Shown here: positions 34,479 through 37,503 of the stretch, in pieces
How the letters are laid out: each line of letters starts with the position of its first letter
How positions within the stretch are numbered: position 1 is the first letter of the stretch
Assembly (NCBI GenBank): GCA_001465015.1
Contig: LNEO01000085.1
Coordinates: 1-64,000 of the forward strand
DNA from: Deltaproteobacteria bacterium Ga0077539
GTDB lineage: Bacteria > Myxococcota_A > Polyangia > Polyangiales > Ga0077539
Direction of reading: 5' to 3'
DNA length: 64,000 nt
The notes under the pieces: generated by a model
Seen by the model: only the letters and a program-made list of their open reading frames with translations
Databases searched by the model: none
Told to the model about the DNA's origin: nothing
Program-made: the position numbers and the translations under genes

Positions 34479-34507
34479 TTGACTTAGTTGCTATCTGCAA
34501 CTAAGAT
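34479..34507 (+). promoter_or_regulatory. Sigma70-like promoter TTGACT-N17-TAAGAT overlapped by 9-5-9 palindrome CTTAGTTGC-TATCT-GCAACTAAG (34483-34505)
   Basis: Perfect 9-bp arms read directly. The palindrome spans the tail of the -35 element, the spacer and part of the -10. Lies upstream of the nicotinamidase ATG at 34593. Confidence 0.65.
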
Positions 34508-34592
34508 CCTGTCGTCGAGCCCAGTGCCGGTCACTGAGCTCGTCCAACGCTCGCCTCGCGGCCCCTCCGGGCCGAACGGAGGGTTCAACGCC

Positions 34593-35252
34593 ATGCGCCG
34601 CATCTACGTCGACGTCGATACACAATACGACTTTTGCGCGCCCGGCGGCGCGCTCTTCGTCGAGGGAGCGCCGCAAGCCGCCGCGCAGTGCGCCCGCATC
34701 ATCGGACGCGCCGTCGACGAAGGCGCCGCGATCGTCGGCTCGGTCGACTCGCACGCCCACGACGCGTGGGAGTTTTCGAGCAACGATCGACGCGGTCCCA
34801 ACGGAGAAAAGCCCAACTTTCCTCCGCACTGCGTCAAGGGGACGCGCGGCTGGCTCAAGCTCGAAGAGACGCTCACGCGGCGCTTCGTGTTCGTGCCCGT
34901 CGACGCGTCGACGCCGCGCGTTCCTGAGGGCACCGACGCTGTGTACTTCGAAAAAGAAGTGTACTCGCTCTTCGCCAACCCCAACGCCGCCCGTTGGCTC
35001 GATGTCCTCTGCCGCGGCGAGCCCGCGGAGTTCGTCGTGTTCGGCGTCGCGACGGACTACTGCGTCCGCGCCGCGGCGCTCGACGCGCTCTCGTGGGCAA
35101 AGGCCAGCGGGGGACGCGTCGCAGACAGCCGCGTGATCGTCGTTCGCGACGCCATCGCAGGGGTCGCCAAAGAGAGCACCGACCGCGCGCTCGCCGAGCT
35201 CCGCGCCGCGGGCGTATCGCTGCCAAACTACGACGAGCTCTTCTCGCGCTGA
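34593..35252 (+). CDS. pncA: Nicotinamidase / isochorismatase-family hydrolase
   Basis: YVDVDTQYDFCAPGGALFVEGA, VGSVDSHAHDAWEF, NFPPHCVKGTRGW, VFGVATDYCVRAAA. Confidence 0.88.
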   Translation: MRRIYVDVDTQYDFCAPGGALFVEGAPQAAAQCARIIGRAVDEGAAIVGSVDSHAHDAWEFSSNDRRGPNGEKPNFPPHCVKGTRGWLKLEETLTRRFVFVPVDASTPRVPEGTDAVYFEKEVYSLFANPNAARWLDVLCRGEPAEFVVFGVATDYCVRAAALDALSWAKASGGRVADSRVIVVRDAIAGVAKESTDRALAELRAAGVSLPNYDELFSR

Positions 35253-35286: not shown

Positions 35287-36036
35287 ATGCCCAACTCTCC
35301 ACCCTTCGATCGCGCGCGCTTCGAGCAGCCGAGCCTCACCGTCGACGTCGTCGTCTTCGCGATGCGCGAAGCCGCCATCAACCTGCTCGTGATCGAGCGC
35401 GGGATCCCTCCCTTCGAAGGACGCTGGGCGTTGCCTGGAGGGTTCGTCGTCCCCAGCGAGACCGTAGAGCGAGCAGCGGCCCGCGAGCTAGAAGAAGAGA
35501 CAGGCCTCACCGGCGTGTACCTCGAGCAGCTCTACACGTTTTCGGCGCCCGACCGAGACCCGCGCGGTCGCGTCGTGAGCGTCGCGCACATGGCGCTTCT
35601 GCCCGCGGATCGAATCGACGCGGTCCGCGGCGGCAGCGACGCGCGACGCGCCGAATGGGTCGCGATCCCCGAGGCGATCGAGAAGGTCGAGCCCGCCGGA
35701 CTCCCCGCCCCTGGCGCGCGCAGCCGAAAGAAGCTCGACGCACGCGAGCCTCACTTCGCGTTCGACCACGACGTCATCGTCGCCACCGCGCTCGCCCGCT
35801 TGCGAGGGAAGCTCGAGTCCACAACGCTCGCGTTTCAACTATTGCCCGAGGAGTTTACGCTCACCGAAGCGCAGCGCGTGTACGAGGCCATCCTCGGTCG
35901 AGCGATCGACAAAGTCACCTTTCGTCGCAGGCTCACGCAGCTCGAGCTCGTCGAAGAGACCCCGCGCATGCGCCGCGGCGCGCACCGCCCAGCGCGGCTC
36001 TACCGCGCAGCGCCCCGAGACAGCGTCTGGATCTAA
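35287..36036 (+). CDS. nrtR: NUDIX protein with C-terminal winged-helix domain, NrtR-like NAD-metabolism regulator
   Basis: NUDIX region LPGGFVVPSETVERAAARELEEETGL plus C-terminal LTEAQRVYEAILGRAIDKVTFRRRLTQLELVEETP; next to pncA. Confidence 0.82.
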   Translation: MPNSPPFDRARFEQPSLTVDVVVFAMREAAINLLVIERGIPPFEGRWALPGGFVVPSETVERAAARELEEETGLTGVYLEQLYTFSAPDRDPRGRVVSVAHMALLPADRIDAVRGGSDARRAEWVAIPEAIEKVEPAGLPAPGARSRKKLDAREPHFAFDHDVIVATALARLRGKLESTTLAFQLLPEEFTLTEAQRVYEAILGRAIDKVTFRRRLTQLELVEETPRMRRGAHRPARLYRAAPRDSVWI

Positions 36037-36056: not shown

Positions 36057-36398
36057 TCAGCGGCCGAGCCAGCGTCGAAAGATCGCTTCGTCCCACCCGC
36101 CGAGGATTTCTCCTCCGCACGCCAGCGTCGGAGCGCGAAGCGTCCCGCTGGTGCCGAGAAACGCCTTCGCGATCTCGTCGTCCGTCGCCTTCTTGGGATC
36201 GAGCTCGACGAGCTTCGCTCCCTTCTTGGCGTACGCCTTCGAAAACGTCCGCACGAGCGCGACGGTGTCCGCGCGGGACACCGGCTCCTTGCGCACGTCT
36301 TCGAACTCGAACTCGACCTTGTTTCGCGCGAGAAACTCCCGCACCGGCTTGCAGCCCGTTCAGGCCCGCCCGTAGAACCGAATCGTCTCTTTCGCCAT
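36057..36398 (-). CDS. ArsC/Spx-like thioredoxin-fold protein with in-frame UGA in a UxxC motif; putative selenoprotein
   Basis: ATG at 36398 with AAAGGGA-like SD: MAKETIRFYGRA-[UGA]-TGCKPVREFLARNKVEFEFEDVRKEP...GTLRAPTLACGGEILGGW. Continuous frame apart from the single TGA at 36362-36360. Confidence 0.75.
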
Positions 36399-36450
36399 CG
36401 CTGATCCCTTTGCTACCACCGTCGCGGAGAGCATCGCCACTCGACGGCAA

Positions 36451-37503
36451 TCACCGAACCCGACGCGCCCGAAACGGGAGCATCTTCTGCATCGTCGAGA
36501 GCGCGAAGCGGTCGAGGTCGAGGTGCTCGCCCACCGCCGGCGATCCGTCCGGCGTCTTCGCGGTGTATCGCGCGTAGAAGGGCGAGCTCTCGACGCGACG
36601 AACGTCGCGCAGCGCCGTGCGGTCGTCGACCATGAGCCGCGCGGGCTCCATCAGCGTCCATCCGCCCATCTTGAGCTCCATCGCGCGAGGCTCGAGCCGA
36701 TGGTCGATGTGAAGGCGATCCCGTGAGAGCTCGAGGTCGAGCACTCGACGCGTTCCGTCTCGCAGCGCGCGGTCGTAGCGGATGCGCGTGCGCGACGGCT
36801 CGTGCGACCGCGCCCAATGCCAGCGCAGAAAGGCGTCGCCGAGCCGCTCGTCACCGTGATTGACGTCGTGATACCCGCTGCCCGCAAACCGAATCGACGG
36901 CGAGCTGAACGTCGCGTCCACGCGACAGCGAGGCGCGATCGGCGCCCATCGATGCGCGCCCGCTCGATCGAGCACAAACGGCCCCGTCGAGGGCGTCGCG
37001 CTCCCGCCGTCGGGCGTGAAGCGAACGCGCCCGCGCAGCGACAGCGGAAGGCCGAAGCGAGGCGGCTCGTCGTCGAGCGACAGCTCGTACGCGCCGTCGC
37101 GCTGCTTGATCAACCGGTTGCGCCCGATCGAGAGCCCCGCGTCGAGCGTCCCCTCGAAGGACGAGTACTCCGAGAAGATCCACCGCGATCGAAGCGGCCC
37201 GCCGCGCTTGCTCGAGAGCGCGACGTTGATCGCGCTGTGCTCGCGCGGCCGCGCTCGTTCGCCTCGCGCGAGACGCTCGAAATACCAGGGAGAAAACACG
37301 CTGCCGACGAAGAAGATCACGACGAGCGCGTGCTCGCCGTCGTCGGACGTCGCGTCGAAGTACCACCACTGGTAGGCGCCGGGCCGGTCTGCGTCGATCG
37401 CCAACGACTCCTCGACGCTCGAGGGAGAGCGCAGCGGTTCGTCCGCGCTGTGATCACCGAAAGAGTCCGCGCGGTTCACTGTCGTCACTGAATCACCGTT
37501 CAT
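36451..37503 (-). CDS. crtC: Carotenoid 1,2-hydratase (hydroxyneurosporene synthase)
   Basis: GAYQWWYFDATSDDGEHALVVIFFVGSVFSPWY and GSGYHDVNHGDERLGDAFLRWHWAR. Confidence 0.88.
   Translation of the reverse strand: MNGDSVTTVNRADSFGDHSADEPLRSPSSVEESLAIDADRPGAYQWWYFDATSDDGEHALVVIFFVGSVFSPWYFERLARGERARPREHSAINVALSSKRGGPLRSRWIFSEYSSFEGTLDAGLSIGRNRLIKQRDGAYELSLDDEPPRFGLPLSLRGRVRFTPDGGSATPSTGPFVLDRAGAHRWAPIAPRCRVDATFSSPSIRFAGSGYHDVNHGDERLGDAFLRWHWARSHEPSRTRIRYDRALRDGTRRVLDLELSRDRLHIDHRLEPRAMELKMGGWTLMEPARLMVDDRTALRDVRRVESSPFYARYTAKTPDGSPAVGEHLDLDRFALSTMQKMLPFRARRVR

Follow-up and report, generated by a model that had tools for sequence, protein, structure and literature searches.

An in-frame UGA in a divergent Spx/ArsC-like gene of Myxococcota is predicted to encode selenocysteine

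A short reading frame with an internal UGA

We asked whether a TGA triplet that falls inside a short gene of the window, the 64,000-nucleotide stretch of DNA analyzed here, ends translation or encodes selenocysteine (Sec) at the active site of a redox protein. The window comes from a 9.7-Mb Myxococcota assembly of 486 contigs that is 91% complete. The gene is described by three features:

36057-36398, minus strand: predicted selenoprotein gene, Spx/ArsC-like thioredoxin fold with U13-x-x-C16 (single-TGA frame, five orthologs, Spx/ArsC relatives)
36360-36362, minus strand: UGA codon of residue 13, predicted to specify selenocysteine (all six orthologs and 75 of 76 sequences of the family have TGA, L062 has TGC)
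36405-36411, minus strand: Shine-Dalgarno-like AAAGGGA 5' of the ATG at 36398 (read from sequence)

Read codon by codon on the minus strand from 36398, the gene begins ATG GCG AAA GAG ACG ATT CGG TTC TAC GGG CGG GCC TGA ACG GGC TGC and runs to 36057 as a frame of 113 residues, in which the sole in-frame TGA, at codon 13, yields U-T-G-C. The terminal stop is itself a TGA (36059-36057), so that this triplet would act as both Sec codon and true stop in one gene. This agrees with the initial annotation, which had described an otherwise unbroken frame around the TGA, an AAAGGGA upstream of the ATG, and a later GTG at which standard gene callers would begin. The nearest ortholog likewise has AAGGGA 5' of its ATG, and the conventional open reading frame (ORF) indeed begins with the GTG at 36344, which lies at the foot of a hairpin (see below), with the consequence that the active site is lost from the called protein.

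Among 58 relatives searched, we found five orthologs besides that of the window (in genomes G001, G002, G006, G043, and G019), with 54 to 96% identity to the window protein, and all six genes carry TGA at the same codon. A search with the NCBIfam model NF041106 found relatives in 88 of 386 Myxococcota genomes, nearly all with one TGA. In the 76 full-length family sequences extracted from Myxococcota, the Sec position is encoded by TGA 75 times and by TGC once (L062), meaning that residue 13 holds Sec or Cys, as had been anticipated for homologs. In one genome (G043:C129, locus L022), a short tandem repeat with several copies of GACTGAC abuts the start codon of the ortholog on its 5' side.

Relation to known families and folds

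The best NCBIfam match of the window protein is NF041106, with 68.7 bits compared to a cut-off of 85, and the scores of three clade members (68.7, 61.5, and 67.4 bits) all lie below this cut-off. An hhalign comparison with NF041106 proteins gave a probability of 99.6% over 99 columns. Both families share the UxxC at the same position, a similar length and domain span, the L-R-A-P motif, and an in-frame TGA followed by an equally spaced hairpin, but their identity is 23 to 35%, and the window family has its own signature, FYGRx-UTGC-[KR]PVREFLAR, as well as GG[WF]D where NF041106 has VGF. Residues 13 and 16, R88, and P90 are invariant over 43 sequences (with Sec written as C). In a tree of 76 rows, the six orthologs form a clade that has 100/100 support and a very long stem (2.39 changes per column); with 112 alignment columns, the exact attachment of this clade is uncertain. 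Judged by the tree and by the unambiguous profile comparison, the window protein is homologous to NF041106 but outside the model as curated.

ArsC-like UxxC selenoproteins are already known. NF041106 (ArsC_rel_Se_1, ArsC family (seleno)protein, UxxC) is listed in a 2026 review (PMC13188914), and the GOS survey names “Arsenate reductase 2, cd03032, UxxC” among its selenoproteins (PMC2398784), which is probably the same family. The six-ortholog clade is a divergent addition with an ordinary mechanism, that is, a selenoprotein subfamily that is truncated by ORF callers and falls below the threshold of the existing NCBIfam model. Selenoproteins of Anaeromyxobacter dehalogenans have been listed (PMC1794560); our literature search found no paper on Myxococcota selenoproteins as a group, and a search of plasmid records returned no relative.

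A profile search of the PDB ranked Spx first, followed by YffB and ArsC-related structures, and the profile alignment matches Sec13 and Cys16 to the first and second Cys, respectively, of the CxxC in Spx. An initial AlphaFold2 model built on six sequences matched no fold meaningfully; a model built on a deeper alignment (pLDDT 81.6) had Spx as its best Foldseek matches (E 2.5e-5), with a moderate fold match (TM 0.56-0.59, rmsd 6-7). The likeness to Spx of Bacillus subtilis (PDB 1z3e, 3gfk, and 7f75) consists of the CxxC/UxxC position, the ArsC-type fold, and the R-x-P segment; the difference is an identity of ∼18% in structural alignments, and the window protein misses the cut-off of the Spx regulator model TIGR01617 (29.8 versus 75.05 bits). 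Glutaredoxins (PF00462), which include selenoprotein glutaredoxins, share the UxxC and match weakly across the half that contains the active site (20.9 versus 22.9 bits), but the window protein has 113 residues with an ArsC-type middle, in contrast to the compact glutaredoxin of 80 residues. The ArsC model PF03960 gave no match to the window protein up to an E value of 0.1 and matched 27 of the 43 aligned proteins with E values up to 0.01. Overall, the profile and fold searches bear out the Spx/ArsC assignment proposed from the sequence at the outset.

Selenium machinery of the genome

The four machinery genes whose presence the initial annotation had suggested checking (selA, selB, selC, and selD) were all found in the genome, above their cut-offs: the tRNA-Sec scores 61.2 bits and is called SeC(tca) by ARAGORN, and selB, selA, and selD score 340.9, 510.2, and 380.9 bits, respectively. 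The selD gene has an in-frame TGA of its own, which would give U18 within GAGUACK (L027:1531-1533 (+), G000:C270), so that the organism has at least one further predicted selenoprotein.

At the level of the class, selA is present in 137 of 322 genomes, namely, in 32 of the 35 with the gene versus 105 of the 287 without it (Fisher p 2e-10, a significance inflated by the shared ancestry of the genomes). All six genomes of the window's clade contain selA, and the three gene-bearing genomes without a selA match (G523, G429, and G459) are incomplete or contaminated assemblies. Taken with the occurrence of the ArsC-like family across the phylum, these counts show that Sec use is widespread in Myxococcota. 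The only Cys form found (L062:1953-2291 (+), G397:C28) lies ∼100 bp from a divergently oriented selA (G397:C28:295038-296348, minus strand), a curious case of a Cys-for-Sec replacement adjoining the gene of the Sec synthase.

A SECIS hairpin downstream of the UGA

Two hairpins can be drawn in the transcript immediately after the UGA:

36326-36344, minus strand: SECIS hairpin, stem 36344-36337 with 36333-36326, loop GUU at 36336-36334 (pairing, covariation, published model)
36346-36356, minus strand: short hairpin between UGA and SECIS, GGCU-GCA-AGCC (folds in the window)

The initial annotation had placed a hairpin (GCGGGAG-UUU-CUCGCGC, with one mismatch) at the site of the first. Its location held, while its register was off by one nucleotide, which had hidden the loop G; we dropped it in favor of the pairing GUGCGGGA-GUU-UCUCGCGC, which has 8 bp with no mismatch, two G-U pairs, and G as the first loop nucleotide, 23 nt from the UGA. 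With this shift, the proposed bacterial SECIS becomes canonical. A published model describes such elements by a loop of 3 to 9 nt located 16 to 37 nt from the UGA, a stem of 4 to 16 bp, a G in the first two loop positions, and a minimum free energy (MFE) of at most -7.5 kcal/mol (PMC13188914), and the window hairpin agrees with it on every count, the MFE of -15.9 kcal/mol being that of a 45-nt stretch with both hairpins. Taken alone, the MFE is weak evidence (z -1.3). A stem of 8 bp with a 3-nt loop anywhere in the 42 nt arose in 0.6% of mononucleotide shuffles, and Rfam has no match at the hairpin.

The fold GUGCG[GA]GA-GUU-[UC]CUCGC[GA]C is possible in all six ortholog transcripts, at a distance of 23 nt between the UGA and the loop. 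Covariation is thin within these six: two pairs vary consistently with pairing, one member has lost a top pair, and it is the wider family that contributes the double changes. In a set of 13 sequences that share the window register, 99% of the cells are paired and three pairs have changed on both sides, a covariation score reached by none of 500 shuffles, and sliding the partners destroys the signal. No single register accommodated the entire family, given that most of the distant members pair nt 16 to 35 after the UGA rather than nt 16 to 34; the two registers were therefore counted as separate sets, and the one longer by one nucleotide, at the same place in most of the remaining family, covaries too. 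Over the 20 codons that follow the UGA, synonymous divergence falls to 0.25, versus 0.56 and 0.49 on the flanks, as expected if the same nucleotides must encode protein and form an RNA signal at once. At the site of the small hairpin, CGGGC-UGYC-GCCCG can pair in four of the five orthologs, the pairs in the window and L019 being different from those of the other four orthologs.

UGA is the leakiest stop codon, and regulated read-through with Trp or Cys could in principle turn this one into a translational switch that involves no Sec. We regard this as very improbable, given that the codon aligns with the catalytic Cys of Spx/ArsC proteins, that a bacterial SECIS follows at canonical spacing, that the genome has the complete Sec machinery, and that one relative (L062) has Cys instead.

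Selection on both sides of the UGA

The nine codons upstream of the TGA have a pN/pS of 0.44 (pS 0.56, pN 0.24), the downstream part has 0.50, and the motifs YGR and UTGC are kept in all six orthologs. By these values, purifying selection acts on both sides of the TGA. The conventional ORF with its start at GTG 36344 would instead be a shorter protein without the active site, with the upstream match being accidental. This is even less credible than read-through: the upstream codons are conserved as protein, the GTG forms the base of the SECIS stem, and the short product would be devoid of the first strand and the UxxC.

A pseudogene, in which the TGA is a nonsense mutation of a former CxxC protein, would take a single substitution (TGC to TGA) in a short frame, but the recurrence of this TGA in six orthologs of such divergence and throughout the wider family already refutes it, in addition to the selection on both sides, leaving it with hardly any probability. 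Least probable of all, to the point of being negligible, is a sequencing or assembly error for TGC or TGT, which the fragmented assembly might suggest but which is already refuted by the same codon in separate public assemblies: three of the five orthologs match such records, including JAEUKI010000057, JAAFIF010000093, and JAUXYJ010000014. The initial concern that reads might show TGC or TGT is likewise inapplicable; the TGA recurs in independently assembled relatives.

Predicted mechanism

The analysis shows the gene with its conserved UGA and hairpin, the genes of the machinery, and the fold family, whereas Sec insertion in the cell and the chemistry, reductant, and substrate of the protein are inferred. 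Our confidence is high that this is a real selenoprotein gene, short of its chemistry, and very high that it encodes a Sec-containing redox protein of the Spx/ArsC-type thioredoxin fold whose UGA is read as Sec by means of SelB and the hairpin; Sec is almost certainly inserted in the cell at this active-site position. SelB carrying Sec-tRNA-Sec would recognize the hairpin 3' of the UGA, so that a selenol would stand where the CxxC has its catalytic (N-terminal) Cys. The protein would then most likely be a thiol/selenol-disulfide oxidoreductase, in which Sec13 would attack an oxidized substrate (a disulfide, a sulfenic acid, a glutathionylated protein, or a small oxyanion), Cys16 would resolve the intermediate as a selenenyl-sulfide, and a thiol system would reduce the latter.

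Genomic context and possible role

One neighbor on the same strand belongs to the context of the gene and is no part of the selenoprotein:

36451-37503, minus strand: crtC-like carotenoid 1,2-hydratase, 52 nt upstream of the selenoprotein gene (NF045922, 1.1e-32, below the equivalog cut-off)

The position after a carotenoid operon on the same strand, pointed out initially, was recovered, and in three genomes (G000, G001, and G006) the selenoprotein gene is preceded by crtC, a crtI-type desaturase, and other members of a carotenoid cluster. The interval between crtC and the selenoprotein gene holds no promoter- or terminator-like pattern, which is weakly consistent with cotranscription. In G002, the ortholog lies ∼40 nt after a photolyase-related gene (PF04244 and PF03441, DPRP plus FAD_binding_7; L105:6639-8354 (+), G002:C165), and in G019 and G043 its neighbors are unrelated. 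The carotenoid link is common to close relatives and may simply be inherited, while the photolyase link in G002 is separate from it.

Both links point to a role under light or oxidative stress that can be tested. As a tentative and on balance unlikely hypothesis, these proteins would act in the photo-oxidative stress of myxobacteria as a selenol form of the Spx/ArsC type. With the gene at the end of the carotenoid operon in three genomes and directly after a photolyase-related gene in a fourth, Sec may, on this hypothesis, provide fast, oxidation-resistant repair of damage by light or singlet oxygen.

Convergent with the selenoprotein gene, an NrtR-like Nudix regulator (35287-36036, plus strand) and a nicotinamidase-like isochorismatase (34488-35252, plus strand) lie side by side and are probably an NAD-salvage pair.
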